In this document: in pieces, positions 17,141 through 51,406 of the stretch
Layout of the letters: the number at the start of each line of letters is the position of its first letter
How positions within the stretch are numbered: the first letter of the stretch is position 1
NCBI GenBank assembly: GCA_910574455.1
Contig: CAJSYZ010000001.1
Location: 4,323,424-4,387,423 of the forward strand
DNA from: Trichaptum fuscoviolaceum
Lineage: Eukaryota; Basidiomycota; Agaricomycetes; Hymenochaetales; Trichaptaceae
DNA: 64,000 nucleotides
Direction of reading: 5' to 3'
Position numbers and translations under genes: made by a program
Notes under the pieces: model-generated
The model's input: only the letters and a program-made list of their open reading frames with translations
Databases searched by the model: none
What the model was told of the DNA's origin: nothing

Positions 17141-17544
17141 TGAAACGAAAGAATTTTGCCCAGTCCATCAAGTATACCCCGCTTTACGAGCCTGTGTTAT
17201 ATACCCTTTCCTCCTACAGCTTCACTCTCTTTTCTTTGGTTCGTGGACTATGAATTATGACTTTCCTCCTTTTCTTTGGTTTATGGACTATGAATTATGA
17301 CTATGGTTAATAAAGATATTCCATCTCTTAGTCTTGCTATGTTTCTATCAGTTTTGTGGCCAGAGACTTTGTGGACGACGAGTATATTAGCTTCAAAATG
17401 ATATTGTTTTGCAACGGGAAGGCAAAGCGGCGATAGATTATGAGACGAGTGACCATCAGTCTACGAAGTTGTCTTATCGCGTTGGAATATTTCCCCTGTC
17501 GGAATTGTAGTGAAAATGAGATCTTCAGGCTGAAAGATAGGAAT
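17141..17544. other. Convergent spacer with a short direct repeat
   Basis: 3' untranslated regions of the membrane protein and uS7m genes. A roughly 30-bp unit reading CTTTTCTTTGGTT..GGACTATGAATTATGACT occurs twice between about 17229 and 17302. No coding potential is seen. Confidence 0.55.
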
Positions 17545-30849: not shown

Positions 30850-30876
30850 CATACATCAGGGAAACTACTTTCTGCT
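30850..30876 (+). repeat. Left terminal inverted repeat
   Basis: 27 bp beginning CATACATCAGGG and ending TTTCTGCT. All 27 positions match the reverse complement of 50868-50894; the match stops exactly on both sides. Confidence 0.88.
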
Positions 30877-31179
30877 TACGGCGACTGACGCGTCCTGATT
30901 TGGCTGGCACCTGTCTGAAGGGTCGCTACTTCGTCTGAAAATACACTGATTGCCTTAACTCACTGAAATAAAGAGTGTTTCAGGATGCAAGCCATCTCTC
31001 AGTACATCAGAATGCAAGTCAGGATTTCAGTGCTCAAGTAACATGGGACTTGGAAAATTTTTACGATTTTTGTTACATCTAAACTTGAATTAGGAAACCA
31101 GTTGAGAAAACTTGAAGTGCGGCAATGCCAATTGCCTCTTCCTCCACCATCCATGTTCAAATTAGACGGAAATCAAACT

Positions 31180-34039
31180 GGGCTTGTGGACTGCCTTGCG
31201 TGCGGAGATTCCTAACGCGTCGGACGGAATCATCGACATCATTGTGAACAACCCGCCTTCGCAGGACGGCACTTCGTTCACGAATGCACGCGACCATCTC
31301 CTTGTGCGCAAGGGCTCCGCGCGCAATCCTATGATCTTCCCCTCTGCGGACTACGACAACGATGCGTTCGGCTTGGACTCGGGTTCTGGGAAGTACACGT
31401 TCACGCACCAGGCGCTGGGCGCAGATATGTTCAGGTTCTTGTGGAATTATGGTCAAAACTGGACGACGTGGACGGCGTATGAGGATGTGACGAGCATAGA
31501 TAAAAGCTTGTTTGACAATGATGAGAATTGGTGGGCGGGCGAGCATATTATTGTGCAATGTAAGTGCTCTTACTCTTATACTAGTATGTGCTGTGATCTG
31601 CTAATCAATTTTGCAATAGGCTGGTCTGCTATTGCTGCATCATCCTATACTGTTGTACATGCGAACAGGAACTATGCTCATCAGTGCCGTGTTCCTCAGT
31701 TCCTTGCTCGTGGTCCGTTCAATACCTGGGGTTTCCACAGAGGAGTGAGCTTCCAGATGGACAATACCGCCGACGGACGCTGGGAGCTCGAAATTATGAG
31801 TACATGGCCGACGTACCTACAGCTCAACGTTTTTGGCTTCGATGACTACTTCTACGGTGACACGGACGGCAACGGCGTCATGACCGCCTCCCGCCCAACT
31901 TGGCTGCGCCCAACTACTTGAACGTCAGTGCTCCGCCGCACCCGCATCTCGCGTTGTACGCTGGTCGTAGATGACGCGACGATGCGGTGGAGCCTCGAGC
32001 CGCGTGGGGAGAGCACTGTGGGCGCTATCATGTACGCGCTGCTCCTGTCGATCCCGGTTGTCACTGGTACATTGGCAGTGGCGATCTTCATGTGGAGCTT
32101 CTACGGGATCAAGTACAACCAGTGGGGTCTCACGGAAAAGAAGCCGGATCATTCGCACAATTTCCCCGTCATTGGCTCGCTGGGCTCGAAGTCTGCGCAA
32201 GACCTGCATGTGGCGCCGATGTCGGAGAAACACTCGAGCCATGGACACGCGCATACAGGCGACATCATTGGCTGGCCGGAAGACAAGAATAAGCGGAGGA
32301 CCATGCTCATTGCGACTTTGGAGTACGAGATCATATTGGAAGTTGAAGGTCAAGATCGGTGGTCTTGGTGTGATTTGATGGGCAAGGCAATGTCGGATAT
32401 CGACCTGATTTAGGTTGTACCAAAGGTTAAAGACATTGAGTACCCTGCTGGCGAACCTGCAGAACCTATCGAAGTCATTATCTTCGGCGACCCGTACCTT
32501 ATCGAGGTTGAGACGCATGTCCTCGACAACATCACGTACATCGTCCTCGACTTGCCTGTCTTCCGCGCACAAACAAAGGCGGACCCGTATCATGCGCGCA
32601 TGACGATATCAGCTCAGCTATCTTCTACTCGACATGGAACCAGGCTATCACAGCAACCGTTAGGTGCTACCCGCAGATTGATATCTACCACATTAATGAC
32701 TACCACAGTGCGCTCGCACCTATCTATCTGCTCCCGAAGGTCCTCCCCATCTGTCTGTCTCTCCACAATGCGGAGCTCCAGGGGTTGTGGCCACTCCGCA
32801 CGAAGGAGGAGATGAAGGAAGTGTGCTCGGTGTTCAATATCAGCAAGGAGCACGTTCGTTCAGTTCGGAAACACGTTCAACTTGCTCCACGCCGCAGCAT
32901 CCTTCATCAATGTGCACCAGAAATCGATCGGTGTCGCTGGTGTCTCTGACAGTATGGTAAACGGTCGTGGGCGCGTTACCCGGCGCTTTGGACACTCAAG
33001 CATGTCGACTCGCTCCCGAATCCGGACCCAACGGTTATTGCTGCTTTGGACGAACAGCCTGTTCAAATCAAGGACATTCAGATTGATGAGGAAGCAGAGG
33101 CGAAATGTACGGAGTTCAAGCAGCAGGCTCAGGAGTGGGCTGGTATTGCACAGGATCCTTAGGCAGATCTATTCGTGTTCATTGGTTGTTGGTTGAAGCA
33201 AAAGGGTGTAGATCTTATTGCAGACATGATGCCTTCGCTGTAAGTTATTTCTTAATCCTATTTTGCTAAGTAAATGAATGTTTGCTCATTTATTAATGCC
33301 AGACTGGAAAAACACCCTTCGATTCAGTTGAATTGTGTCGGGCCTGTCATTGACTTGTATGGACGTTTCGCTGCGGAGAAGCTTGCTCGTCTCATGGAGA
33401 TGTACCCGAACCGAGTGTACTCAAAGCCAGAGTTCACTACTTCGCCTCCATACGGTGGTCTCGGTCTCATGCCTGGTTGGGTAAGTTTGCATTCGTTTTT
33501 TCTAATGTTTTGCAATCTGACTTTGAACACAGTGGTTCCCTGTCGAATCGAGTTCAACAGCACACATGTTGTCCCAGCTTACGAAAACAATAAAAATGGC
33601 GCTTAAGTCTACGGAAGAAGAACATGCTATCTTGCGTGCTCGTTCGGCTGTTCAGCGTTTCCCGGTTGTTGAATGGCGTCAGCGCATGGGAGACTTCCAC
33701 AAGCGTAGCATTAACTTTACTAGTCGTCAGATCGCGGGCTCTTTAGCATGGAGACCTTCTGATGGTGAAGCTGAACATCGGGAAGAACCGACGCAACCCA
33801 ACTGGGATACCCGAAGCACATACGACAGCCCACACAACTCGATCACTGGATCTCCTGGAGCTTGGAGCCATTCGACACTCGTGCCTCTGGAGCAGCATCT
33901 GCTCCCTCCTCGCACTTTGAAATTAGAAAGGCGTGGTTCAGCAAGCTCTGATGTATCCGAAGGCGAGGACTACTTTGCGCGCGCGGAATGCGAGTACGGA
34001 AGGTTATTGCGAAGCCTGACGGGGACAAGCTGGCTCTGA
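31180..34039 (+). pseudogene. Alpha-1,3-glucan synthase (AGS1/mok1) C-terminal relic
   Basis: Homology starts inside the protein, at ALRAEIPNASDGIIDIIVNN and PSQDGTSFTNARDH, and runs to the C-terminal [20 protein letters not shown] region. It covers the end of the amylase-like part, a membrane helix (YALLLSIPVVTGTLAVAIFM) and the glycogen-synthase-like GT5 part. The whole N-terminus, over 1,000 residues in the family, is absent. Frame changes occur near 31880, 31960, 32334, 32375, 32600, 32850 and 32950, and stops replace codons at 32411-32413 (where W is expected) and 33160-33162. Near 33450 a segment of about 35 residues that includes the donor-site E-x7-E region of GT5 is missing. Clearly inactive. 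Confidence 0.88.
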
Positions 34040-34516
34040 CACTGGACTATATAATAAAATAATATAATGCATCAGAGCAGACAAATCTGCCACTGACATA
34101 GTACTACTATTGGAGGAAAAATAGTTGCTGCACCGCTTGGGTAAAATATGTAGCTTGTGATTACTTAACGCCCAGAGGTGTTCGGGTATCGCCAGCAAAA
34201 AGCTGGCCCGTCCGGGCGTTATATTGAATTGTCTTGAAAACTTTGAAGTGTCTTGAAAAAGCACTAATAGTGGTGTTGAAAACTATTTAATCCATTGGGT
34301 TGCTCACAGCAGACAGACACCATTGGCGACATCTTCCAAACCACTTTGATACCTCAGACTACGGTGATCATTCGGGAAAAAAAAGCAATTCAATAATAAA
34401 TTTTAATCATGAATCTCCTGGCAACTTTGAAAGACAAGAGCATGTGCACAACAATTTACTCGATAACTCAAGCACATTTGGTCAAACCTGCTACTGGTGG
34501 GCCTCAGCCTACTAGA
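34040..34516. other. Spacer after the glucan synthase relic
   Basis: A/T-rich sequence with short direct repeats such as TTGAAAACT and GTCTTGAAAA near 34230-34290. No gene is seen. Confidence 0.45.
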
Positions 34517-35558
34517 TCAAGCCTCGAAGTTCTTGATGTACTTATCCGGTAAGGGTGGGTGGCTTTGGCTCAGGGCCAAAGCTACAGCAAACGTGCTGTG
34601 AACATCAATGGCAGCATCTAGTATTCCAGTACAGCAGATCATGCAAGTGAGAACTTGAAGATGGTTGATCTTGAGCAACAAAATGATAACTTACATTGTA
34701 TTTGTGCCGCTGATAGCTCGTTAGCTGCCCAGTCACTCATCGTGACCTCACTACTCTTCTTGACGTTCAGCCTCAATACTTCTCCCACTATTTTTTCGAG
34801 CTTGACAGTCGGAGTCGGATGCTGGAACCAGAGACGAGGGTTTAAGAGCAGTTGGGACCAGGTCGGGTTTTTGGGCCAGACTTCCGGGTAGACAACGCGC
34901 GCCCAATCTGTCAGATCGACACAGGAGCGCACAGAGGTGCAAAACTTGCGCTTTATACGCACTGCGTCACCTGCCATTTCTTCTGGTTGGCCACCTCGCA
35001 GGAGAAAAGATAAGTTATTCATACCGTTGATTCCAGCTGAAACTTTCATGACTGTACCATCCCCAAGGAGTTGCGCCAACGTAGGAGGAAGGTCAGTAAG
35101 AGTATGCGTCCTGACCAGATAAACCTGGTTTTGAACTGCGAGTTGGATGAGGTCTACGCGATGATTGGACCCTTTTCCGCCACTTGCCCACTCGATGTCG
35201 ATCGAGACAAATCTCCTAGCTGGTACCTGTGGCAAAGATGCATATATTGCAGTCATTGCGTTGTCCACATCCAAGCCCGTGCAACACTGTATCGGAACTA
35301 TATTATGGGGCCTATATTCATCTAATTCGGAGAGAGGTGTTGGTGGTACCCCGAGGAAATCAAGAAACGTTTGCAGTTTCTTGTGTATCTAGCAACAAGT
35401 CAGTGTACAGATCTTGATATGAATGAAACAAGTACCTTCGTTTGAGCCCTTGCTGTCCAGCGTTGAACGAGCTGAAAGCGGAGGACGGTGCGGAGGTGCA
35501 GGCGTGCGTAATCAAGGGAGAGGAGGATGAGAAGGATAGTACGAAGATTTGAGAACAT
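34517..35558 (-). CDS. DEDDy-type 3'-5' exonuclease domain protein
   Basis: Start at 35558 gives MFSNLRTILLILLSLDYARL, a possible signal anchor. An intron follows (about 35436-35390), then HKKLQTFLDFLGVPPTPLSE. The exonuclease fold begins at RRFVSIDIEW (Exo I, D and E), continues VDLIQLAVQNQVYLV, VRSCVDLTDWARVVYP (Exo II region) and LNVKKSSEVTMSDWAANELS, and closes across the last intron with IQYAAIDVHSTFAVALA, which supplies the Y-x3-D of Exo III. Ends KYIKNFEA at 34517. About 300 residues, resembling RNase D/WRN-type nucleases. All acidic residues I can assign are retained. It lies inside the mobile element, so it may be captured host cargo or an accessory nuclease. Confidence 0.75.
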
Positions 35559-35815
35559 GATTCACGGTGGAATGGCTGGATGATGATCTTGGGGACGATA
35601 CCCGCTCCCACTTCACACTTATACAAAGTAGTTGAAGTCAGTTTTCTGATTTCCCATTCTTCTAGAAAGAGAGAGGGAGCTATTAGTGCTTTGTACTATG
35701 ACTTGGATAAACCGCAAGTTGAACTGATAGGAGATAACAAATGATTTCTTCCGGATGACTTGATTATAAGGCTTCTTTTCATTTTAAGCACAAACGAACA
35801 AGAAAATGAGTCATG

Positions 35816-36417
35816 TTAACTCCGAAGAAGTCGGGAGGATACAACCCACTGCACAAGAAGCTGCTCCATCAGCTCTAGAAGGATTTCGAAGAAAGCCACG
35901 AGTAACTCACCATACAACCAGTCATCCCTGTACTCAACCCGAAACTTGAACTAGAACCGTGCCAAAATGGGAAATGGGCCAACTTGAACTTGAATGCATC
36001 CCAACCCGCTTCGGAAGGAGTAATTTGCATGAAGGCGCGTTTCTCGTCCTCGGAGCTGAGGGAATCGCGCTGTCGGCCGACGATCAACTCATACTGCACA
36101 TTGAAACCGAGCGTTCTCCATTTAGGCGGCAATGGTGGCGGGGCAGAGGTGTTTGGCAAGGAATGGGGACACGACAACTTGGATGATGTCGAAAATGCAG
36201 TTATAATCATTCCCTTCGCTGCATTTGCAAATTGAGTTGTGAGTCGCTTTGTCGACGTCTGGTGGACTTTGTGCATGCAAGCGGAATATTGGGACGCATC
36301 AAACTGCCCGGTGATACATAGCCCCGTATATACGAATCCGACCGCGCAACTTCGCAACTTTTCTCTCCTCACTGTTGTATGTGTTGAGAGAGCGTAGCTG
36401 TTCAGCATCCTTCCCAT
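35816..36417 (-). CDS. Hypothetical protein inside the element
   Basis: Start MGRMLNSYALSTHTTVRREK. The central part (KWRTLGFNVQYELIVGRQRD, EAGWDAFKFKLAHFPFWHG) looks protein-like, with a pattern of aromatic residues. A GTGAGT donor at about 35910 and an acceptor near 35848 would add a short last exon ending at 35816. No family is recognised. It slightly overlaps the WD40 relic on the same strand, which suggests either a captured fragment or a young gene. Confidence 0.35.
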
Positions 36418-36429
36418 GTTTTTGGGCTC

Positions 36430-37151
36430 TTTCGCCGCTCAGGCCAGGCGAACTTAGGCTTAGATGTCGATTGAGCAGGGATCCCTGAGGTGAGTGTAGA
36501 CGGTAGGGATAGAGACTCGTCCCCTGACTGCTCAGTGCAAGTCCTGTGGCCGCTTATTGTTGAGCTGGAGATGGTCGAGGAAAAGAGGAACGATGAAACG
36601 AGAAGAAGCTGACGCGGCCATCGTTCCTTCCGGTGACAAGAAAGTCGGAGTCGTACTGAAAAGTTGTCACTGACGAGTCGGGGATGAATGAATGTGAAGA
36701 AAATCATACCCATTTGCAGATTCCATACGCGAACGGATGTGTCCAATCCCCCACGCCCAAGAAAAAAGACAATACAATTTTCGGCGTAAATCTTATGCAG
36801 ATTTTCTCGGAGAACGTATGGACATTCCCCGTGCCGATGCTCCAAAGCTGAAGAAGCCTGTGAGTATTATGATTCAAAAAATAAAAGAACAACTTACTCG
36901 AGAAGTACAGTAGAAGCTTTCGCTCACTGATTACCGCACGCACATCCCCTCCTGGTGCCTGTGAGCGCCGGTTCAGTAACTTGCCTCTTTGCACATTCCA
37001 AACGTCGGTGATGCGTCTCGCGATTCAAAACCTGGGAGGAACAGACCTCGGATGCAAGTGCAGCAACCAGTTTTAACGTCCTGCACTCATCAGCCACCAC
37101 TGATGATGAGCTCTCTGGCGTAGCTCTATCCATTGGAGAAGGTTCACTCAT
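36430..37151 (-). pseudogene. WD40-repeat protein relic
   Basis: Pieces of WD40 blades appear in different frames: RITDVWNVQRGKLLNRRSQ (near 37020), LLQLWSIGTGNV (near 36855), GGLDTSVRVWNLQMG (near 36745) and DFLVTGRNDGRVSF (near 36650). The second and third are out of frame with one another within one exon. A start-like MSEPSPMDRATPES at 37151 precedes them. Only about three or four of the usual seven blades remain. The blade style recalls F-box/WD40 (CDC4-type) proteins, but the parent cannot be named. Confidence 0.6.
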
Positions 37152-37689
37152 GATATATGGTGACGGATGTAATCACTCTACCATCACCAATTGCTGAAGG
37201 AATTCGTGTTGTCAACTGTGGAGGTAGACGTGTGCGCATGGCCCCAGTGTGCTCGCCATTGCTTTAGTCGGTAAGGGGATACGCGTCGGGATAAATTTGC
37301 GAGAGAAGCCTGGGGCAAGACTTGGGGCAACCACCTGCTGTGGGCGCAGTAAATTGCGTAGACGGTAGTGGTTTCGTGTCCTCTGCAAAAGCGGTCGAAC
37401 TCCTACCCCCTGGGTTTCCATACGAGCCGTGCCGAACGAGCCGAAACGCGTCGACCCACAGGGAGCTACAAAAGTATCGTGCAGACGTACGTGAGCTGCG
37501 CAAGGCGTTGAAACCGATAGAACAATTTGAGCATGCTGAGACAGGCAGAGTGAGTGAGTCGGCAGATGCGCGGCGGAAGAAAAAAGAGAGTATACACAGC
37601 AAACTCAACAGTGAAACGAAAGGCCTACTACCTCTTGTAGTAGTAACCTCAGTTCTAGTTGGTGGCATTCACGAGTCGGGGCGTAGAGC
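37152..37689. other. Element segment with overlapping ORFs of unknown value
   Basis: A plus-strand frame (37322-37702) encodes a charged helical stretch (RELQKYRADVRELRKALKPI), and an opposing frame spans 37668-37264 on the minus strand. Neither is recognised. The plus frame looks more protein-like but has no good start context. Confidence 0.3.
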
Positions 37690-38886
37690 AGTAGTAACTT
37701 GAAGCCTGTGAGACTCCGAGTCCAAGTCGGAGGAGGCTCGGCTCAGCTTCAACTTGAAGTTCTTGAATTGATGACGAGTCAACTTCAAGTTGAACTCTGA
37801 CCCGACTCCGACTCAGCCTGAGGCTCCAACTTGAACTTGAACTTGAACTTGAACTTGAACTTGAAGTACCGCCGTCACGCCGGCCGGACAGCCTGAGTGC
37901 CACTCACCAGTGCTGGGCCAGCCTTCAAGCTCACTCAGGTCCGGTGTCCGGCCTTGAACTCAGGCTCGGACTCGGACTCGGACTCGGACTCGAACTCGGA
38001 CTCGAACCGTATACTACTACTAGTAGTAGTAGTAAAGTTGAGATTGTGACAACTTGCCAGTCTGAGTGGACAGAACTGGAAGCTTAAGCTGCTTAAGACT
38101 GGATCATTCAGCTGCCAGTGGCTAGTAGTAGTACGGTACCCTGCCAGTGAGTACTAATAGTAGGTAGTAGTAGTCGCCAAACATCACTGGCATGCCAGTG
38201 GCATTCAAGTTCAATTTCAAGTTGAAGTTGTCGGCGCGCGCAACTTGAATGCCAACTCCGAGTCGGATCATTCAGCCTGCCAGTGAGTTGCAGTGATCAT
38301 GATGTCCGACTCCGACGGCCCGGGAGTCACGGCAGTAGTACGTGGCAGCCTGAGGTACTAGTAGCGTTTCCACTCCGAGCCGTCGGACTTTCAACTAGTT
38401 CAAGTTCAAGTTCCGAATTTAGTAGCCTGAGTACCCCATGCCCACAACTTGACGTTGCACCCCAGTGAGCCTGAGCGACGTGTCGTGCCCGAGTCTAGTA
38501 CTTAGGCTTGTTCTTCAACTTCACACATCAACAGCTTGAAGCCCTCTCATCCTGAAGTCCACCTGAATTTCATCCTACTTGTAGACTGCTGGCACTGGTG
38601 GTGAGTGAGCTTTCAGCCTTCTAGATCTACTTCATCCACTAACTGAGATCTTCAAGCTTGTACTTCTAGTACTACTAGTAGTAGCTCTACCGATTAGAAC
38701 CACTCAGGCTACAGCCTCAGGCCGAGCGTGAGCCTGATCCGCTTCAAGTTCGCTACTACTACTTAGTACTACTACTCGCTACCGAACTTCCGCGTGAGGT
38801 AGTACCACTACTACCACTACCACTACTATTACTAATATTCGGCATCACTACTCACGGCAAGCCTGAGACTCCTCCAGTTTGCAGTT
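37690..38886. repeat. Low-complexity mosaic of short repeated words
   Basis: About 1.2 kb built from a few recurring words on both strands: TTCAAGTT/AACTTGAA, CCAGTG/CACTGG, GCCTGAG, GGACTC and TAGTAG/CTACTA. It holds a tandem ACTTGA array (37828-37866), a GGACTC array (about 37965-38007), an inverted CTACTACTAGTAGTAG block (about 38009-38035) and CACTGGCATGCCAGTG, a 16-bp palindrome near 38187. No coding potential. The same words return in other spacers of the element (41450-41765, 45780-45960). Confidence 0.7.
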
Positions 38887-41316
38887 ATGCCATCATACAA
38901 TAGTAACAAGCGTCAGCGCAGCCCGAAAAGTGAAGGTGAGCCTGAGTTTGAGTCGGACCCCTCGCCGGTTCTGACAATTATTTCGAAGAATCCGAATCCG
39001 AGTCGGAGCGCGTTTCTGTCGAGCGTCGTTCCAGTGGTAATCGGAATGCCCATGAACGTCACTATTCACCGCCGTATTCACAGAAACACTCAGGCTGGCA
39101 CAGGAAGGACAAGAAGTAATAAACGGAGGAGGAACGATCATGAGTACAGTCCCACGAGCACTCCGGGGCCGAGCCGTACTAGTACCAGCGCCAGTGGGCA
39201 ATACCGAGACAGGACCAGCTCTTCATACCCTGTGGAGGCGTACCGCGACTATAGAGGCAGCGCACAACACGTACACAACAGTTATAACCCGCGTGAAGAA
39301 CTTGGAACATACTCTGGCGCCAATGGCTATCGAGGGGAGACTCAGAGGCGGGACGTCGCGCAGAACGATCCGACTATTCCAAATAAGAGGGTTCTTCAAA
39401 TTAGCGTCCTCAACCCTTCAACCCCTTCACCTACTCCTCGGCCTCGATTCAGCCCACGTAGTACTCCAAATGACATGTTGTCGGATTTGCGTTCTAAAGT
39501 GTCTGCTGCCCAAAAATCTATGCGCAGTTCGCCGGCAATTGGAGTATCGGATTCTCAAGTTGATAACGTCGATCCAAGCGAAGGTAACGCATTCTTCCTC
39601 CCTTTTCTATCATAGTCTGTGTCCAAAGCTAACCCTTCACTGGCACAGAAAACATCGAATCGGCTCACTTGATCCCAAAGAGTTCATCTCATTCGCCAAC
39701 CCCCTCTGAGCTCGCGCCCTTATACGATCCAAATGCAGGAGTCAAGCAGCTGCAGGACTTGACCAAGAAGCTGAAAAAATGGGAGGAATTTCATAAAAAG
39801 GATTCCAATGAATTGAGGGCTCGAGTTACGGATTTGGAGAAGAGGTTTGCCGTGATGGAAGGAGTCCAGAAGAACGTTGCAGATACTTTAAATGACGTAT
39901 CAGCGTCAATCGATCTCGTGGAAGACAAAATGTCTGGGGTAAGTAACATGATCACATTTCTAAAAAGAGTGACATCTAAAAACATACCCTTGTTAGTCAC
40001 GGCAAGCAGGCAACGCTGTAAGAATGAGGAAGCTTACAGATAATCTACTGACCTACCTCCGGGAAGGCTGTGCAATTGTCCTTGATTTCACTGGCGAGGA
40101 GATACTGAGAACCAAGTACTCACATAATTCTGTTCCCGGCACTCTCAATTACTTTGCCGCCAACTTTAAGACATTGTCTGTCGTCATGCATGAACACTTT
40201 AAACGATACCTTCGAGTTTACTTGCCACCTCCGACTTCGAGTCGTTCCCCGGAACCGGAAGAATACACTGTGGTAAAAGACCCACCACATGTCAAATTTA
40301 TCCTGAATCGTGAAGCTCGGCAACGTCAAAACCTGCCATTCGACGCATCTCAGGTGAACAAATTAACTGCTTTCCGGTTCTTTCTACCATATTTCCAGCT
40401 CCATTACAACGCACTTTACGATTTCATCGTAGAAATTGACAAACTCCTCCAACAATCGGCAGCTCTTCAGTTTAATTTCAAGCCCAATGCACAGGAAAGG
40501 CTCTACTCAATGACGGTGGACAACCCAGGAACTTTCGTAACGCCTGCGGTCCAACTGTTTGGGGGATTGCCTCAGGTACGCCCTCAGCCTGACGTTCACA
40601 AGCATCTAGTCTTTAAAGACTCGGAGATTGGACGGAGACTGGCGCTCACACTTTGGGACAAGGTCCGCGCACTCCATAACGGTGAAGAAGTGCCGAACTT
40701 TGTTATGGCCGACGACCTTCGCATCAAATCTGTTGAAGACATGAAAAGGACCTTGAAGGCCTTGGGGCCTAATCCCTCTTTCGCTGATTTTTTGAAGAAA
40801 CTCGACTTACGAGATGTCCGTCGTTTGGAAAGGATTCAGCGGGAGTTGATACATGGTTTTAAAGTCGTCAAGAGGTGGTTGCAAATAGTCCTCAACGAGG
40901 ATCTTTTCTACACAGTCATGGGTAACCAGCTATCCCGTTCAATCCGCCACGTAATGAACGATATCATACATGCTCGGGAGGAGAGGACTGACGCAGTCCT
41001 TGACTCTATTGAGAAGTTCACGGCTTACGTAGACTTGAAGGATACCCGCAATAGTACCCGCTATGATAAATTTCAAGACCAACTGATAGCAACGGTGCTC
41101 GAGATATGTAACGATATACCACCCGGAGCGAGGGTTACGGCCGGGGCTTCGACTGCCAGGACGAGTTTATCACCGGGAGAGATCTACAACTCACAGTATC
41201 GCGATTATCTAAGCGAAGTGATGAACCGAAAGCCTGAGGATATTTGCACACCGATGTATCTTCCTAATGGCAAGCAGGAAGAAAGGTCTCTTAATAGAAA
41301 CAGTCACCACAACTAG
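38887..41316 (+). CDS. Coiled-coil accessory protein of the Plavaka element, unknown function
   Basis: Exon 1 is Ser/Arg/Pro-rich with basic runs (SNKRQRS, SNKRRRND). An intron (about 39585-39649) leads to a coiled coil: LTKKLKKWEEFHKKDSNELR then VTDLEKRFAVMEGVQKNVAD. After a second intron a globular region of about 400 residues follows without a break (GCAIVLDFTGEEILRTKYSH ... LPYFQLHYNALYDFIVEIDK ... RRLERIQRELIHGFKVVKRW), ending at 41316. No known domain. From about 38975 to 39113 a different frame reads a natural-looking Ser/Glu-rich stretch (NYFEESESESERVSVE), suggesting two compensating indels or a missed intron. It may assist transposition or bind element DNA; that is inference from position only. 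Confidence 0.65.
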
Positions 41317-41765
41317 CTGTTGCGGGGCAGAGCTGGACTCGGAGGTGAAGCTATGACTTGGAGTTCCCATGTAATCTTTGCGCTATGCTAGTGTCTACAG
41401 TTTTTCCTTGTGTCGCTTTGTGATTTGCTGATAATAACATTGCCTTGACCAACCTGAATGAAATACTACTGCCATGATATCATTGCCAGTGTACCACTAG
41501 TAGTATACTGTACAACCTGAAAGCAAGCCAAGAACACCATAACTTGAAGTTGAAGTTAAAACAGTGTCATGGTACTACTAGTCTTTAAGAGCCAATGCTG
41601 CAATGCCAGTGTAGTACTACGTTACATACGTAGTACTAAGGTCTGTTTCGTCTAGTACATCCTTTTGTTTCATTGCCATATCCGAGTCCTCACTCGTAAG
41701 TTTCAATATAGTACATTCAAGGTTGTGTATGCTAATTGAAAAGCTTTACTTCAAGTTAGTAGTAA
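41317..41765. repeat. Spacer with the element's repeat words, convergent gene ends
   Basis: Between the stops of the coiled-coil gene and the transposase. It contains GCCAGTGTA, ACTAGTAGTA, AACTTGAAGTTGAAGTT and a TAC/GTA inverted block (about 41620-41635). The vocabulary matches the 37.7-38.9 kb mosaic. Confidence 0.55.
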
Positions 41766-44700
41766 TCATTGTCTAGTTTCGTACAATGTTTCGTGCATGT
41801 GCATGTCAGCAAATCTGTTAACGTAGAATCTATCGAAAAAGTCCAGGGATTCCTCAGGTGTCAATGACTTCGGAGGAGATTCGTCACCCTTCGGGACCCC
41901 AAGGAGGTGAGCTAAACGAAAGATGTCCCCTATATCTATCACAGACAGCTTCGGAGCCTTGCAGTCACGGTGATAGTGATGTCTGCCACTGTCATTCACT
42001 CCGGGACAGCGTCCGACACAGGCGGTAGAGCTCTCCAACTCATATGCTGGTTCAACTATCCACATTCTTGTTTTCGGGTCGGGCGATTCTCCAACACGCT
42101 TGAAAAACTGGACGAGAGCGCATTCCTGACGTTCCACTTTAACGGTGAATGAGAAAAAAAGTATAACCCTGGCAACTCTCATTCCTGCGAACCCCTGTTT
42201 GCGGGAACCACCTCGGACAAGAACTGCATCTCGTCGAGGTTTTCCGCGCCAAGAGGGACTGGACCTGATCACCTCCCTCATTGCTTGTTCTATAGGGATC
42301 GATTCACCACGATACGCAAAGAACGCGGTGGCTGAATGGAAAATTGAAAAGTCATTGCTAATATCCAGTTTATAGTGTTCAAATCCGTTGTAGTTTAATT
42401 TGGCTTGCCTGCTACTACTAGTAGTAGCAGAACACTTTGAGTTGGTGTTACAACTTTCGTACTTGTTGAATAAGTGTTTCTTGATGAGTTGTCGGAGTTG
42501 TCGAAGTTCTGGATAGCCTTCTATTGCCGCGAGAGCATCGAGCTGTTTAGGGTACACTTTACTGGACTCTGCAAGGATAACAATAAACAAGTTGGATTTG
42601 CAGCACCAAAAGGATGTTTCACTAACGTTTTTTTGAAGCCATTAACGTAAAGCTCAAAGGGTCATTCTTGCCACCCAAGCGGAGCTGGCGTTCAGCATTT
42701 CCTACGCCATGAACCGCACCACGCTGTGGCTCATCTATTAAACTTTCGGAATCGTCCCAAATCTGCAATTTCGTTGAGCTCTTGAATACCCACAATGGCA
42801 TCGAAGAAGTCATCTGTATCATCAGCTTCACCTACTACTAATACGTCACGTTGTTGCATCTGCTCTCCCCCACTGGCATCAGGGTCCCTCTCAGCGTCAT
42901 CCGACTCTGACTCTGACGACATATTCTTGCGCAAAACATCTCGCAAAGCTCTCCACGAAGCCTCGGCTAACGTATCATCCAGCATTCCACGCCTTTTGAA
43001 GTCTGCCCTTGATGCAATAAGTTTACTGAGTCGTTGGTTTGCTGTGATCATCTGACCCAAGGGATCATTTTTGTTTGAGCGTCGCCATGTTTCCTTGACC
43101 GCGTAAATGTGCTTATTCTCTGTGATCGATGAACATAGTCCACTCGGTGCAGCGAACAGAGGAATCATTGTAGGATAGTGGACCATGGCATGCTGTCGTG
43201 GTAGTGAGAAGTTGTCCCGGATACCCATAGCTATGAATATTTGCCGATATTGATGAAAGCAATCCAGAGAGGCTTTGATCTGATCAAGTGTTGAGGCTGT
43301 AATCGTGTACCGACGCACAAGATAACAGAAGTCGAGAAATGCACTCAATGCATGAATTATATCATCCTGCACAATGCCCACAATAGCCGGAAGATACACC
43401 TAAGCGGTTTACATCGACTACTATCAGCAAACGACCGCCTCGAACAAGAAGGAAAAATCACATACTTTCATAAGTGCCTTTGAATCATTGCCTGTCCATT
43501 GCTTGAAGCCTCGGCCTTCGGGGAATCTACGTAGTCCAGGAAAAGGAGCAGCGACTCTGATTCTACGCGGAGGTCAGCGATAGTATTCATATTATACAAA
43601 TTGTTTGAGAATGGCACCTTTTATCCACAATATCCAGCTCTGTTGTGGTCAAGCTCTGGCATATCCACTCGACAAGATGATCCTTGAAAACACCTTTGAT
43701 GATTTGGTGCAATAGGTCCGGAGAAATGAGATCGCATATATCTGCGCGCGAAAGTCATTGGTGAAGGGCTACGGGAAAACATAGTTCTTAGAAGCGCATC
43801 CAATGGAGAATTTGGAGCACATACCACGATATCTTGGTGGAACCCATACTCTTTGCGAATTGTTGCTCTGGTTAAGTTGTTGTCATTTACCTGCTCTATC
43901 AATCGTTCGTGTAGCTCTTTTGTTCGAGGATTTGATGCAAACTCCGGATTATCTAGGTCCTTGTGGGGAGCTGTGCATCTATATAGCCACCGTAAGCCAT
44001 TTCCTCAGACTCCTATGCGATTTTGGAAAGGATGGTACTTACTTGCAGCACCATCCAGTGCATATTGCGCATAGACTCACCTGTTCCGGATAATCGGCTA
44101 TATACGAGCCGAGTCCGAGAACCGACCTACGCAAGTGACCATCAGGGCACCGGAGAATGGTCTGTTCATTGTTTATGGACATGGCGGTCTTCAGTGAACT
44201 CAAGATTCTCGATATAGATGAATGAAAAATTTGATGTCTAAAGCGACGGAAGTCATCTGACTTTTCGTACTGTCGCTCAGCTGCAAAAAAGCGTCAAAAC
44301 ACAATTGAATGGCTCAGTTTTTGACACACACTCTTTGGTATTGCTAAAAATGCTACAAGCTGGACTGTATTCAACTTTTGGGACCGCCGGGCCTTGTTTG
44401 ATACATTTCCTATTGAGAGATATAACGGATAATATTCGTTGTTGCCAGTTCCAACGGAAACTGTTGTCTTGTCGCTCCCCAAGATCACCGGAACGAACAT
44501 AGATCCATGGACTGCTTTATCTTCGGCGTAGATCTTATTCTAAGTCAAGGATAATCAGTATGTTTCCTGCGAGTTCATGAGTCATGACCTACAGCCTGTT
44601 CCCAAGCAAAATTTCCGGACATGTAATTTCTGAACACTCGTTCTTTGTCATTGATGTCATCAGATTCCTCCTTTGGCTGATATTCACGAAATGGGACATA

Positions 44701-45770
44701 GTCGAATTCGCCTTCTAAAGCCGTATTATCCACCAAATTTCGGATCACTTCCAAGGGATCCCGATACCATACATCATATCCTTTCCTCTTCCATGACTCG
44801 GTGTTCTCGTCTGTCGCTTTTTGGCCATTGTTGTCCGTGTAGAAGTTACTAAAGGATTTCCAAGGCACATCACCAACTCTCGTAGCGTCAATGACATTGT
44901 ACAACTTTTGTGCGTCTCCATCGAGTAGCGTACTAGTGGGATCCAGATCTGAGTCATCATCGGGCTTAGTTACGTCCAACTCAGAATATCCGCCAGATTT
45001 CGCGTTCTTCACAGACTGAATTCGCTGGTAAGCCTTCATGATTCCGAGAAGCTTTGTTATATTACCAGCAGACATTTGCTCATCGCGATAAAGAAAGTCT
45101 GCGAGCTCAAAATCTGCTCGGCACGAATAGGGAGACCAGTCATTTGGTGCAGGTTCATTTCGCGGAACAGGTGGTTCGTCGTTTTCTAAGTTGTTTCCTT
45201 CCGCATCACACGGGGTGGCTGCACGATGTTTTTCATCAGAGTGCTATCAAACCGAGGACAATATACTTGGTGCGCACCATTCATATATCTGTGATACACC
45301 TTTAGGTCACCATCACTCTCCTCATGATCTCCAACGTCGAAGTCCAAATCTTCAGAGGATGCACTACGGCCACTGTCACTTCCGGTGCCAGAATGGGACA
45401 GAGAATCAGGTCTGTCTAGGTCTTGAAGCAGCTCGTCTCGGCCTATACTGAGCATCGAGATATCCTGTGTAAGCATGGAAATATCGTAATCGTAGGAGTC
45501 AGGGCCGCTCTCAAAATGACCCTCTGTTGGAAGTTCGGACGACCTCGGTAGAGGTTGAGGAGTTGGAGCTCGTGTGGGTCGAATAGGTGAAGGATCATAG
45601 TAGTCGTGACCACAGGCAGTAGATCTTGCCACGGATGACATCGGATGAGCTGAATATTCATGTCTTGCTCTTCCAGATTGACTCTTGAACGTCCTACTAC
45701 AGCTGGGCAAGGTGCATCGAATAGTTGGTGGAAAATGAAGGGGATCGTGCTTTTTCCGTGTCGCTGGCAT
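41766..45770 (-). CDS. Plavaka-type DDE transposase
   Basis: Start at 45770 (MPATRKKHD), then a C2H2 finger (CTLPSCSRTFKSQSGRARHE). A GTGCGC donor near 45280 and later introns restore frame into NDWSPYSCRADFELADFLYR, FVPVILGSDKTTVSVGTG (first catalytic Asp), NEYYPLYLSIGNV, RCPDGHLRRSVLGLGSYIAD, GWCCKCTAPHKDLDNPEF, RADICDLISPDLLHQIIKGV with FKDHLVEW (second Asp region), FSLPRQHAMVHYPTMIPLFA and SSITENKHIYAVKETWRRSN (catalytic Glu). The C-terminal domain follows: PSWRGKPRRDAVLVR, VARVILFFSFTV and TRMWIVEPAYE, ending LYETRQ. Every exon joins in frame with GT..AG borders, so the gene looks intact. A Cys/His-rich insert (CVGRCPG..HHYHRDC) interrupts the C-terminal domain. Confidence 0.85.
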
Positions 45771-46017
45771 CAATGTAACCTTCAGTAGTACATGTCGATG
45801 ATTGGGACTCACAGCTGAGTGCCAGCAGGCTGGCAGTGAGTGAACTTGAACCTGAGTTAAAATTAGTCATAGAGTAGTCACGGTAGTAGTGGGCGTAAAT
45901 TTTCAACTTGTCTAAGATAGACGCCCCCGCCTCCCTGATCTTGAACTAGCACCTTCGATCCATCTTATTATCACCCAAGTCTCAAAACACTGCACAAAAT
46001 GTCAACTCGAAGACAGA
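45771..46017. promoter_or_regulatory. Divergent promoter spacer inside the element
   Basis: About 250 bp between the starts of the transposase and the acid-tailed gene. It contains element words (GTAGTAC, CTGGCAGTGAGTG, AACTTGAACCTGAG). No TATA box is evident. Confidence 0.4.
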
Positions 46018-49000
46018 CGAGGGGCTAAGAACAATAACCAGCACCCCGGAGCAGTAGTTGACCAACTCAGAACAAGACGAACAAAGGAGGAGATATTGCG
46101 GGAGAAGGAAGAAAAAGACAAAAGGAAAGTACAGCAGGCAGCGAGGCGGGATGAGGCATTGAAGGAGAAGGAGGAGAAGGAAAAACAGAAGGAAGAACGG
46201 GCAGCTTTCCGCAGAGCTGCGGCCCAGCAAGTCGCGGTCGCGAAAGAGAGGAAAAAACTCGCTGCGGAGCAGAAACGGGCAGCAAAAGAACAAGAGGCAG
46301 CTGACAAGGTACGAAAGAAGGTGACTGCAGCAGAAAACCAAGAAGCAGCGATGCTAGAGACCGTAGAAATTGAAAACAATTTGTCGAAGGCTCTTGAGAC
46401 ACGCACCCAGATGGGCTCAACAGTGCCTAAACTCGCTGGAAAACGTGGATGTAGGAAGCCGAAGGGCGAAGCTAGTAGTAAGTCTTCAACCTCAGATCAG
46501 TAATTACATAGCTTTGAACTGGCGTAAGCAGGCTCGAAGAACGATGTTAAAGACGTGTCGGGTTGTGAAGTTGAATACAACGAAGACTTAGACATTGGTG
46601 AGTTATACTGCCTATACATTTTCAGATGTTTTCGAAGCTTGGAGGTTGACTACTTTGACTCACAATATGAAGCGGCGAGTACGGATGCGTCAAACAGAAA
46701 GCCTGCAAAAAAGGCTAGGAAAGAAGATCCCAAAGGTGAACTTCCATTTCGCACCCGTGTGCAGACCGCAAAGACGTCGAGATCTGCCGCCACTCCAAGC
46801 AACATTTTCTTTCACGCACCTGCCGGACAGAACGAGAGCCTTTCTGGTGAAGAAACGGATATAATAGACTCGCCCGCTACGTCAAAGCGGGACGACAAGA
46901 CAAAGCGACCTGCCAGGGCGCTTCGCAACACAGATGAATCCACTTTCATTGGTGAAGAGGATGGAGGACTTGAGGTGGCTGGGATAGACTCGAGAGGGAT
47001 CAATTTGTGAGTTTAAATTTGAAATCTTGCAATGCGTACGGGATCAATTTCTGGAATGCACGATGTAATGGTAAGTGTGAAGCTTGATTTAGACTCAGCT
47101 AAAGCTCATAGTTTGATCCACTGGCAACTAGATTACTAATGTTCATGCTAAAGAAGCGGATCATGACGCTCCGACAACGGGATCAAATTTCCTTCTACCT
47201 ACAACGATGACACTCTCGTCTTTGTTACCATATTATGAGCTTCGCTGACGCCAAGCTACACTAGACACAGCATCTCATTGCAAGACAATGAAAACTTAAG
47301 TCCTTGGGAGGATGAAGGAGAAACAATAACCCTCGCAAGCTATCATGGTGTAAAGAATAGCTCAATCAGCGTGCAACAGACAGCACATTTTGTCGATTCG
47401 GACACAAATATTGTGAGTTGACGGAACATTAGAATGGCAGATGCAGTCTGAATACCTTGCTTGTAGGGCGAAAGCGATCCGAGGAGGCTGACAAGGCCGG
47501 CTCAAGCTAGTGTGAGTGTGACTTATTACTGTTCGATTCACGTCAGTTACCCCATGACCGTTTGATCATATCCCTTCGTTATTATTTTTCTGCCAACTGT
47601 CGTGTAATGAACAGGATGGAGGTAGCAGCAACTTGAACTCAAAGAAAAGGAAGTTGCTGCGCGACACTCTCTCCGGGTCGCAGGTTTCAACGGTAAGCGA
47701 CGTCATATCATTCCTACCTTTTCCAATCTACTAACCAATCCCTTTCCGTACTTGAGGATAAGAACAACGAGACAAAACCAGGTGGACAGGTGAGTGCCAG
47801 ACAGTGAAGCACAGTGATCCTCATGCTACATCCTTCCTTCATTGCTTGCTGAATTGATCTTTGGACAGGATGCAAACAAGAGAACTGCCAATTCGCAGCT
47901 CAGCGCACCGGTAAGTCCCATCTTAATCCAGTTTCTCTCGTTTCCCCCTGATTTATGGTTGTAAGGTGCATTCACTAGCCTTGGAACCCCGTATACAGGT
48001 ATGTGTGGGCGTCGATGCACCGTAGGCTCACTTCCGCTGTAGCAACTGTTCGTTCCCTTCCTCACATCGGGTTGATCACTAATTTGTGCCTATAAATAGG
48101 ACATCATAGTCACAAAAAACAGAAAGAGAAAGTCGCCACCGGACATCGACTCCCAGGTTGATGTGGTAATTCTTCCACCTTCACGTGTAATGGATTCCTT
48201 CATGTTTATGTTTACTTACTTTACACCATCTCAATAGGCTAGTAAGAGTGTCAAGGTCAAGAAGTCATTGTTGACTGGCATGGACACACAGGTCGGTGCC
48301 ACAGTAAGTGTCAATTCTTTGGTAGCCGGCATTTTAAGTTCGTTTCTGACCGGGCGAAAAGGATTTGAGTAAGAAGAGGAAACCCTCTGACACTCCTTAT
48401 CGGCCTGTGGCCGACACGACGGTAATTGCTTCCTTTCGAGCTGCTCACTTGCCATGGATAACAGCTTTCTGACGTGTTGCAGTCTGAGATTGGATCCGCT
48501 ACCTCACATCGCAAGAGGCAGTCGCTGGTGGCTGATAATGAAGCAAGTGTGGGTCGATTGATACACTCTGAATATGAGCATTCACTCACTATTCTTATTA
48601 GACCGGTGGTCGAAAGATGCCGTTAGCACCCCGAACACAGTCGCTTGCAATGACGAGAGTATCCTGCACTCCCGGACCCGAAGTGTTAGTGACTGGGGCT
48701 TATCCTGGTCATCGCAAAGTCTCTCGGACTACTAGCTCAGTGTGTCGAATCAAATTCATTTCTATGACATATTTTTGCTGATTCACTTATATGCAGACAT
48801 CAGTGGGGCTGGAGGACAAGGGCCGAAATGAAGGAAAGGAAGGATCTCGCGTGCCAGGCAGAAAAAGGGCGACGAACCAGTGTCTCCCTCCCGGTACTCA
48901 GGCCGGTTGGACTCATATTTTATTACCTTCACTATTTCGCGCAGTGGGAAAGTCCATCACGCCATGGCAAAACCCGGACAATGAGTTCATCAGCACACTG

Positions 49001-50295
49001 TGGGGGAAAGTGTTTGATTCTGTGGAACTAAGTTACGAAACACAGTTCGCCGACATCTGTTCTCTAGTTGAGTCATTCTTAGTTATCTTCAAGTTACCTT
49101 TACCAGATTGAGATGCAATCCTTGTATTTCAGGCGGCCCAGAGATGCTCTGATAGCTGGCGCAAGAAACTGTTTGAGAAAGCTGAGCATTCAGTTGCGAG
49201 TTTTATCAGCAGCGAACAATCAAAGTCAATGCAAAACGAAGCAATTGTGAAGACGTTGCAGACGCTAGTTGATAAGAAGAAAGCCGAACCGTTTCTATGG
49301 GAAAGCTGGTATAGTATGGAGAGGGTAAGTAAAAGAGTATTTATTGTCGCATTTTGTGTCCATGTATTGACCCTAAATGTACAGAAGCAAGGACTGTTCT
49401 GCTCTGACCTTGTGGTCTCAGTGTTGTCCGTACACATTGTATTGGCCATGGGTCGGCATAAAATACTGGACAGAAACACCATAGGAAAGCCTATCGGTGC
49501 CCTCGCCCTTGCGGCAACAGCGGTATCTATTTTTTTCAGTACTTATATTGTCCTTATTCGCTGATCTTCTCATGGATAGGTCAAGGTTGCCATTGATAAA
49601 CAGGTGGCTCGGTTGCAAAATATCAAAGAAGAACTTGGCGGCGCTGAGTGGTATTTCACTAGCGCTCTGTGGCAGCCTCATACGGACGACTATGTTAACT
49701 TGTTGTCGAATCCCTCTTTCTTCACTGAATCAAACTGGGAAAAGGTTCGATCCCGCCTCCTAGCTTACGATGCCAGTACAGATATCGATACGAGAAAGAA
49801 CACCGAACTTGTTGGATCGGGTATCACTGGCAGGGACTTTTCCTTGTACTTTGACATCGTAGATGCAGATTCGACCTGCGAGAAAGCGTATGACGAAGGC
49901 GCTGGTGATTGGGAAGACGGGAGCGATGATAAGGGCGACGAGCGTGAAGGAGCTGAGCATAGAAGCGATGTTGAAGGTGATGCAGAGGACGAGGATGCCG
50001 ATGCTAAAGGAGATGACGACCTGAGTGAGAGCGGGTACGAGGGCGCTGACAAGATTGAGGGCGAGGGCGAGGACGAGGGCGCGGACGAGGACGAGGGCGC
50101 GGACGAGGACGAGGGCGCGGACGAGGACGAGGGCGCGGACGAGGACGAGGGCGCGGACGAGGGCGCGGGCGCGGCGACGAGGACGAGGACGAGGGCGCGG
50201 ACGAGGGCGCGGAGAAGGATCCAGGCGGAGATGGCGATAATGAGGAGGACGACGCTTCAAAATGGGATTCGGCCACGGACTGCGTAGACTTCTAA
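46018..50295 (+). CDS. Acid-tailed accessory protein of the Plavaka element, frame-disrupted
   Basis: N-terminus MSTRRQTRG, then GAVVDQLRTRRTKEEI and a long Lys/Glu/Arg/Ala helix to about 46502. Many small exons follow, each with a short Ser/Lys-rich piece. A globular region (about 48790-49760) has GWTHILLPSLFRAVGKSITP, WRKKLFEKAEHSVASFISS, KTLQTLVDKKKAEPFLWESW, IGKPIGALALAATAV and GGAEWYFTSALWQ. An acidic tail contains a GADEDE repeat. Frame is lost twice: just after the start (one base too many in GGGG near 46027-46030) and in the repeat near 50170, after which the natural acidic frame ends at 50295. Similar proteins accompany Plavaka/KDZ transposases in mushrooms; function unknown. Confidence 0.55.
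50069..50165 (+). repeat. 18-bp tandem repeat encoding Asp/Glu/Gly/Ala
   Basis: About five copies of GAGGACGAGGGCGCGGAC, in frame with the acid-tailed gene (GADEDE units). The opposite strand reads as long Arg-Pro or Leu-Val runs, which are artefacts of the repeat. Confidence 0.85.
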
Positions 50296-50867
50296 GGGCA
50301 AATCGTTCACTGGTGAGCCTCTTCGTTTCGTCTCTGTCCGTGCGCTCAATAACTTATTACCATCGACTCGCAGAGCAGCCTTCGTTTCTACTGGCACGCC
50401 AAAGAACATGCAGAATTGAAGGCACGGTAGCGAAATGGGCCTGCCACTGCCCGTGGCAGTGGTTCAGAATCGTGTCGTGGCGGGTTCCATGATAGTGACT
50501 GCTATGCTTAGTCTTGTGTAAATGACTGATGTACTTGAACGCTGAGGCACTGATAGCTACTTACCGTTGTCTTATATTACTTCTGATGCAATGAAATACT
50601 TGGATCGTTCTTATGCACTTGAACTCTTGAGCACTGCAGTTTGTCTTACAACACTTGTCTCCTGCTGTAATTAAAGGATGAAGCACTGAAGCACTGGAGC
50701 ACTGGGGTACAGATTGCCTGAAACACTTAGAGCACTGATTCAGCCAACTCGCCCTTATTTCAGCCAACTGGTCCTGAATAATGGGAGGACATGCATGAAT
50801 AAGTGCGGTTTGCCTTATTCAGACTTCAAGTCACTCAGGACGTTTAAGTAACGCTTAAGTCACTTTC
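50296..50867. repeat. Right subterminal repeat region of the element
   Basis: Contains TGCCACTGCCCGTGGCAGTG, a run of GAAGCACTG/GGAGCACTG units (about 50680-50710), AGTTGGCTG and CCTGAAACAC on the minus or plus strand. The reverse complements of several of these words recur within 200 bp of the left terminus. No gene. Confidence 0.65.
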
Positions 50868-50894
50868 AGCAGAAAGTAGTTTCCCTGATGTATG
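50868..50894 (-). repeat. Right terminal inverted repeat
   Basis: Begins AGCAGAAAGTAG and ends CCCTGATGTATG; it is the exact reverse complement of 30850-30876. STE11 leader sequence begins just beyond it. Confidence 0.88.
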
Positions 50895-51406
50895 TCTTTT
50901 GTTTTCTGGCTATTACAGCGTCAAGAGTCTACAGGTTGCCTTTATACTCTCGTACCTCCTCCTCACCGTCCCGCTCATCGTGCTCGTCGTGAACAGCAAC
51001 GAGCTCGAACTTTGCGCCTATCAACAGCTGCGGCTTGGAGCGCTTCTCCTTCACCGAGTCGCGCGGACTCTCCGGCTGTCGTCGTCCTCTCTGGATTTGA
51101 TTTCTTGTCCTACATCAATCACTCTGGTCTGCACTTTTCTCATCCCAAAGCATCTTCTTCGCTATCTTTGCACTTTCCACCTCGCTTTCGTCTCTCCAGT
51201 CGCCGACAGAGTTGCGCAAGTGTCCGACGTTCGTGGGGTTTGCTACTTTCAGATTGTACGTTCAAGTACGCGATATTGCGCTTAGACCAAACCTGACGGC
51301 AACGCGTCTCTCAGAACTAGCATTCCCCAATCAAATTGCATATCAAGTTTCTACTACAGGGCGTCAAAGATAGTTGTGCCTTCCTGCGCAGTATTCTACT
51401 CATATA
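50895..51406 (+). promoter_or_regulatory. STE11 upstream region / 5' leader
   Basis: 512 bp between the element end and the STE11 ATG, rich in C/T with CTCC and TCGTC runs. Frames here are open but show no domain and are likely leader. There is no clear TATA box, so the original promoter may have been partly displaced by the insertion. Confidence 0.45.

Follow-up and report, generated by a model that had tools for sequence, protein, structure and literature searches.

We analyzed a 64,000-nucleotide stretch of the Trichaptum fuscoviolaceum genome (here, the window; positions 4323424 to 4387423 of contig C1 in an assembly of 59.09 Mb and 12 contigs) that contains a large Plavaka element with an exonuclease gene. 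The ends, copies, and genes of this element indicate that it is very probably a DNA transposon of 20 kb in Plavaka lineage B, recently mobile and potentially self-sufficient. A preliminary description, made from the letters of the window alone, had proposed a single 20-kb Plavaka transposon with matched ends, and this was borne out by the Pfam Plavaka domain (PF18759), the terminal inverted repeats (TIRs), and the paired copies elsewhere in the genome. Beside the transposase, the element encodes a WRN/EXD2-like exonuclease and two further genes, here called gene 2 and gene 3, and it carries a piece of a glucan synthase gene (Table 1). Rather doubtfully, it may stand for a giant Plavaka lineage that has evolved a lasting kit of four genes: the transposase, the WRN-type exonuclease, a rapidly diversifying gene 2, and gene 3. 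Within such a kit, the exonuclease would work together with gene 2 to manage broken DNA ends or to disarm host silencing.

Table 1. Features of the element, in window positions
Feature	Position	Strand	Remarks
Target-site duplication TA, left	30852..30853	.	Exact 2-bp duplication in 27 of 29 flank pairs
Left TIR, 23 bp (CATCAGGGAAACTACTTTCTGCT)	30854..30876	+	Genome copies and shuffle test
Alpha-glucan synthase gene fragment, decayed	31216..33999	+	Frame-changing indels, in-frame stop, deletions; part of PF08323
WRN/EXD2-like 3'-5' exonuclease gene	34517..35558	-	4 exons, 287 amino acids, open in the window copy
Gene 2	38889..41316	+	Basic low-complexity N terminus, coiled-coil stretch, helical C-terminal domain (39997-41316); 5' exons tentative
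Plavaka transposase gene	41766..45770	-	Multi-exon; C2H2-like N terminus (by eye); PF18759; frame shifted relative to L040 and L042
Gene 3	45916..50287	+	Basic charged N terminus, DUF6532 match below cutoff, acidic repeat C terminus; exon structure tentative
18-nt tandem repeat, acidic tract at the end of gene 3	49984..50252	+	Repeat scan
Right TIR, 23 bp	50868..50890	-	Genome copies and shuffle test
Target-site duplication TA, right	50891..50892	.	Flank-pair comparison

Ends of the element and its copies in the genome

Comparison with other copies set the boundaries of the element at 30854 and 50890 (20,037 bp). The element begins with CATCAGGG and ends with CCCTGATG, with TA outside both; its perfect TIR spans 23 bp, and the complementarity of its ends over 40 bp is 85%. 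The preliminary description had placed the ends 4 bp farther out, at a perfect 27-bp inverted repeat; the pairing is real (100 shuffled versions of the window yielded no match for the inverted repeat at 30850/50894), and the placement was wrong, the outermost 4 bp being the TA target duplication and two chance bases. The recurring subterminal words reported there fared less well. GCACTG, AGCACT, and CACTGA occur 6 to 7 times each against a shuffle mean of ∼0.9 each, but the most frequent word (7 occurrences) showed no clear excess over the shuffle maxima (mean, 4.6; largest, 9), and CACTG/CAGTG lies mainly at the right end (9 versus 3 in the end bins), so this detail is weak. An Rfam scan gave no match.

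Copies were located in the 59-Mb genome with a 38-base left-end pattern (231 places at ≤3 mismatches, 100 listed) and a right-end pattern (219 places, 100 listed). Exact matches numbered 33 left ends and 40 right ends, and 1 further left end had 1 mismatch. Of the 33 exact left ends, 30 faced, judged by position and strand, an exact right end at a distance of 20 to 64 kb; among the other three, one was partnerless in the list, one faced a variant right end at 5.3 kb, and the last lay 72 kb from the nearest exact right end. The flanks of 29 of these 30 pairs were compared (the pair at C3:2393675/2426875 was left out). All 29 had CATCA..TGATG termini, and 27 had an exact 2-bp target-site duplication (TSD), where random re-pairing of the flanks expects 4.1. 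No pair agreed over 3 bases (0.34 expected), and the duplication length is therefore 2 bp. The repeat thus pairs, in oriented ends at least ∼20 kb apart throughout the genome, rather than scattering unpaired, and the other copies share the same end points, with the TSDs lying exactly at the TIRs; on both counts the preliminary description holds. The length was 20,037 to 20,214 bp in 17 of the 29 pairs and 21.6 to 63.4 kb in the other 12, which presumably carry nested insertions.

Some related ends (L009/L019 and L010/L011) have identical 12-base flanks at different chromosomal places and probably lie in duplicated DNA. Such flanks could suggest that the 20-kb sequence is a dispersed repeat or a segmental duplication and not a transposon at all, but the 29 distinct flank pairs, 27 of which carry a 2-bp duplication right where the TIRs end, refute this, and we consider it almost certainly wrong. 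Elsewhere, two Plavaka-type ends of different families lie only 8 bases apart (L036; C3:4500428 and C3:4500437).

The two pairs lacking a TSD are adjacent copies in opposite orientation on contig C6, and their 2-base flanks match crosswise (TG/TG and TT/TT). These inverted copies (C6 452878-510746; L067 to L070) have 16 kb in between, and the crosswise flanks suggest an inversion through recombination between the two copies. Such an exchange of flanks means that near-identical 20-kb copies seem to reshape the genome.

The family is young in the sampled copies. Compared in halves, without ∼160 middle bases each, the copies on C5 and C9 (L039 to L042) were 99.84 to 99.89% identical to the window copy, with 3 to 5 substitutions per 9.9 kb and with mostly single-base indels as the remaining differences. 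Private single-base indels occurred in every copy compared and look like residual assembly error.

Transposase and classification

The transposase gene was spliced by eye, with introns of 51 to 64 bases. Its first 573 amino acids matched PF18759 with an E value of 1.1e-92 (profile positions 4 to 287 of 325). Read by eye, with no alignment to CMCT transposases, the translations show CCKC, HAMVH, and then ENKH, which is the order expected of the CMCT group. The genome holds at least 165 matches to Plavaka transposases, with 123 of 834 candidates scored.

In the accessible text of Kojima 2025 (PMC12730594), PlavakaA elements have TGT..ACA termini and a 2-bp TSD, PlavakaB elements have CATCA..TGATG termini and a 2- or 3-bp TSD, and Plavaka is assigned to the CMCT (CACTA-like) group and not near KDZ, whose Zisupton elements have an 8-bp TSD. 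By its termini, 2-bp TSD, and PF18759 domain, the window element fits Plavaka lineage B of the CMCT group. The "Plavaka/KDZ" label of the preliminary description is incorrect in this light, and we rejected a KDZ placement on the 2-bp TSD and the published reclassification. Cut-and-paste mobility would follow by analogy, since the ends, the TSD, and the transposase family are those of a group in which mobility is established.

The exonuclease gene

The exonuclease is encoded in four exons (35558-35436, 35388-35025, 34970-34695, and 34617-34517), with no stop over 287 residues. Splicing improved its PF01612 match from an E value of 9.2e-6 to 4.1e-15, and its closest solved relatives were WRN (2fbt; E value, 3.2e-9) and EXD2 (6k17; E value, 6e-9), both DNA exonucleases. 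The DEDDy catalytic set is kept (D-x-E, D, and Y-x3-D), with DIEW, GD, and YAAID aligning to residues of WRN 2fbt. The exonuclease gene of the preliminary description is thereby confirmed. There was also a weak structure match to a homologue of the exonuclease mut-7 (E value, 0.0078), and mut-7 takes part in RNA silencing.

We searched the genome with the exonuclease protein and scored 150 of 355 candidates; the counts that follow are among the matches listed. In the window element's own family (family A) there were at least 20 places at 100% identity (two with one stop flagged) and at least 5 at 98 to 99%. There were also at least 2 places at 94% and at least 55 at 91 to 93%, and all seven of the latter that were checked by hand lay 4.1 kb inside left ends of a related type, here called LB. 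More diverged places included at least 30 at 60 to 62% identity, over query residues 137 to 240 only, and single ones at 43 to 69%. A PF01612 family search of the genome (5 candidates) missed the element copies and found a single other gene with this domain, L093. The possibility that the exonuclease is a recent copy of L093 was rejected, as the codon comparison gave no alignment above 20 codons.

Five proteins in a public protein collection matched the exonuclease. One of these, P0002 (288 amino acids, 96% identity; jgi, on a 1,274-bp contig), lacks all three introns at the predicted places, and another, P0003, reads through the predicted introns as genomic DNA does. The simplest reading is that P0002 derives from a transcript of a relative of the exonuclease gene.

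Gene 2 and gene 3

For gene 2, the genome was searched with the C-terminal frame of 439 residues, and 96 of 210 candidates were scored. At least 25 places had this frame at 94 to 100% identity and full or nearly full length (3 with one stop flagged), and at least 3 had it at 76%. Further families had open frames of 339 to 468 residues at 31 to 36% identity, and one stop was flagged in each of four such frames. Gene 2 matched no Pfam family above the cutoff, no distant database relative, and no informative fold.

In comparison with the nearest family (sister copy L111), the ratio of nonsynonymous to synonymous substitution rates (dN/dS) of gene 2 was 2.42, and the differences by codon position were 60/51/22. 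A Fisher test (127 of 1000 versus 16 of 290) gave a P value of 0.0004, which is approximate because the site counts were rounded. Against distant families the ratio was 0.57 to 0.68, with high dS. Within family A, gene 2 of the C2 copy (L115) differed by 2.0%, with a 6-base insertion and 27 substitutions (12/9/6 by codon position); the left 1.5 kb of this copy (L020) differed by 0.53%, and the ends of the other family A copies compared differed by 0 to 0.20%. Similarly, the right ends of two copies of the sister family differed by 1.9% and 3.0%, versus 8.9% for gene 2 of L111. Divergence in gene 2 (39997-41316) is thus several-fold above that at the ends of the compared copies. Recombination between families could contribute to this divergence, but alone it leaves the excess of replacements unexplained. 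Judged from these substitution patterns, gene 2 probably faces an evolving partner, and its signal points to an ongoing, mappable conflict.

For gene 3, a DUF6532 match on one unspliced open reading frame (ORF) reached 13.8 bits against a cutoff of 24. The acidic C-terminal frame of gene 3 had at least 158 matches in the genome (150 of 498 candidates scored), those listed being 74 to 100% identical, and dN/dS against a related family, family B, was 0.52. The C-terminal frames listed differ in length between copies; 18-nt repeats encode the acidic tract.

Host-derived DNA in the element

Positions 31216 to 33999 aligned with the genomic locus L087 (C1:4175602) in two blocks, one of 2.25 kb at 88% nucleotide identity and one of 0.6 kb at 82%; the 108 bases that L087 has between these blocks are absent from the element. 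Together with the PF08323 match, this alignment confirms the glucan synthase relic that had been described. Relative to L087, the piece has an in-frame stop and several indels whose lengths are not divisible by three. It is thus decayed, and these changes rule out that an intact glucan synthase is carried for its use. Because introns appear to be included in the alignment, the piece was probably captured as DNA and not as spliced message. In a search for the glucan synthase family, 30 of 46 matches were the same short GT5 piece as in the family A copies. Three more places (L088, L089, and L091; C8:226773, C3:924601, and C7:5226766) have an uninterrupted, near-complete GT5 domain, which lies 1.9 kb inside related left ends of a type here called LC. 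A 5.26-kb element with related ends (L086:101-5359; C6:2784494) also carries a glucan synthase piece.

Other host-like genes were sought with Pfam at an E value of ≤0.1 in the 20 ORFs within the element, out of 42 listed for positions 30000 to 52000, a scan that a gene split over short, unscanned ORFs could escape. No TET/JBP family member was found among these 20 ORFs, and the WD40 relic of the preliminary description received no Pfam support. By sequence comparison, the glucan synthase piece is the only cargo shown to be host derived.

Related Plavaka families

The window element has relatives with which it shares only part of its length. A family B copy (L084, L100, and L101) shares the right half, positions 41352 to 50890, at 82 to 88% nucleotide identity; its transposase is 84% identical to that of the window at the nucleotide level, and dN/dS across the transposase exons was 0.17 to 0.61. 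To the left of the shared half, in the 24 kb read, no similarity was detected, and the left end of this copy was not found there. In this copy (C1:680525; L084 and L100), the transposase gene is interrupted by a 6.7-kb insertion.

The LB family, in turn, shares the left end and the exonuclease at 91 to 93%, with gene 2 nearby at ∼36%; an LB right end was not found. In the first 9.9 kb of one LB copy (L083) there was no similarity to the window beyond the ends, and this copy may hold an insertion, because its exonuclease sits deeper inside than usual. Judged from the positions of these blocks, with no full LB element read, the Plavaka families here look like mosaics that exchange blocks.

Diverged relatives of the exonuclease, gene 2, and gene 3 were found in other Plavaka families of the same genome, to which they were assigned by position. 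Because these relatives recur, the three genes are not recent passengers of the window copy. The cargo of host-like genes in the preliminary description therefore stands for the glucan synthase piece and not for the exonuclease and the two unknown genes.

Autonomy of the element and maintenance of its genes

The following observations weigh against a recently mobile, potentially self-sufficient element. First, an empty site was not found when the joined 300-base flanks of the copy at C3:4274708-4294875 were searched in its own genome only; the query hit only the two flanks from which it was built and a dispersed repeat inside one flank. Second, beyond codon 573 the transposase of the window copy shifts frame where those of two sister copies (L040 and L042) do not. 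Third, all four diverged exonuclease copies that were read (L107 to L110) are frame-shifted, each independently where comparable. Fourth, one of six dN/dS comparisons of the exonuclease (L106) gave 0.71; all six values are approximate, because the alignments cross introns and frame shifts.

The second of these bears on whether the 20-kb copies are moved in trans by related families, such as family B, with their own transposase dead. Related families have common ends and the 84% identical transposase, and the 5.26-kb element is a short one with ends of this kind. However, in none of the three copies read (window, L040, and L042) is the transposase frame broken within its first 573 codons, and the shift of the window copy is absent from its two sisters, each of which has its own single-base differences at other places. 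We consider movement in trans unlikely, and the frame shift of the window copy looks like sequencing noise. The intact-looking transposase of the preliminary description was thus right as to its Plavaka domain, while single-base differences do shift its frame relative to two sisters.

The frame-shifted exonuclease copies also fit a reading in which all genes other than the transposase are inert passengers that persist only because the copies are young. The plain decay of the glucan synthase piece and the ∼99.85% identity of the family A copies are in its favor. Against it, dN/dS of the exonuclease was 0.14 to 0.35 in five of the six comparisons: 0.34 (L105, an LB copy), 0.35 (L110), 0.20 (L107), 0.14 (L108), and 0.14 (L109), the last three with synonymous sites near or at saturation. 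Further, the catalytic residues are kept in family A and, by eye across frames, in L107 to L110, and the open gene 2 frames persist at 31 to 36% identity. Inert cargo is therefore very improbable in our view, and we retain the reading of a recently mobile, potentially self-sufficient transposon.

Proposed mechanism and possible roles of the cargo

In the proposed mechanism, the transposase, which has a zinc-finger-like N terminus, would bind the TIRs, use its DDE center to cut both ends, and join these to the target DNA at a stagger of 2 bp. The exonuclease might trim the 3' ends of DNA that arise when a very long element excises, inserts, or undergoes gap repair. Gene 2 would be a fast-evolving factor set against a changing partner, for example host silencing or family-specific ends, and the glucan synthase piece would be a host fragment picked up as DNA and decaying while carried.

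For the exonuclease, we lean tentatively toward DNA-end processing over a role against silencing, as its closest solved relatives by sequence, WRN and EXD2, would suggest. An anti-silencing tool that degrades small RNAs or silencing intermediates, the role proposed for TET/JBP in other Plavaka elements, is possible but somewhat doubtful, and other roles account for the remaining probability. The weak match to the mut-7 homologue points in that direction, as does the diversifying change in gene 2, which resembles that of a host-defense conflict. Moreover, in the accessible text of Kojima 2025 (PMC12730594), PlavakaB families of two species, and thus the same lineage, carry TET/JBP genes that are presumed to act against silencing.

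If true, the four-gene kit would make these elements the eukaryotic equivalent of those large transposons of prokaryotes that carry dedicated modules for end processing or counter-defense. Because a recent burst of such elements coincides with a conserved DEDDy exonuclease, one can test directly whether big elements depend on an end-processing enzyme of their own.

Comparison with known elements

The closest known system is PlavakaB, which, in the accessible text of Kojima 2025 (PMC12730594), is alike in its CATCA..TGATG termini, 2-bp TSD, Plavaka transposase, and accessory gene in some families. Unlike PlavakaB with TET/JBP, the element described here has a WRN/EXD2-like exonuclease, gene 2, gene 3, and a host fragment within 20 kb, with no TET/JBP in the ORFs scanned. 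The word "exonuclease" is absent from the main text of that paper, the supplement being outside the search. In the parts available to us, the enlarged En/Spm (CACTA) elements of Chondrus crispus (16 to 20 kb, 4 to 5 ORFs; PMC6431247) are alike in broad group, size class, and gene number, but their host, a red alga, belongs to another kingdom. The giant Plavaka repeats of Amoebidium (up to 50 kb; PMC11244446) are likewise large units in which a Plavaka transposase is accompanied by additional genes; as far as the accessible text goes, they differ in their tandem gene clusters and many tyrosine recombinases, and an exonuclease appears there only as a laboratory enzyme.

Among DEDDy exonucleases of the PF01612 family, WRN and EXD2 share the domain, the D-x-E, the second D, and the Y-x3-D with the element-encoded protein, which differs in lying inside a DNA transposon and in being a 287-residue protein without a helicase domain. 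DNA transposons (Pack-MULEs) and Helitrons transduplicate fragments of host genes. The host fragment found here in many copies resembles such transduplication, but it is only side cargo of a complete element. Both Pack-MULEs and Helitrons are named in the accessible part of a review (PMC6431247).

No report of an exonuclease in Plavaka was found in the literature searched, with most subscription papers, Repbase, and supplements outside the search. The preliminary description had called the passenger set unfamiliar, and we likewise found no such set in the papers that could be searched. Large CACTA elements, Plavaka elements with TET/JBP from mushrooms, and the Plavaka repeats of Amoebidium are already known.

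Neighboring features in the window

To the right of the element, a SAM-domain gene (51374-53527; Pfam SAM_2, E value of 4.8e-12) has an ORF that starts ∼0.5 kb from the element end. We take it to be possibly an STE11-like kinase gene, although no kinase domain was found in the two ORFs scanned. Also outside the element, positions 17229 to 17302 hold a 34-nt direct repeat in two copies that are 94% identical and start 40 bases apart.

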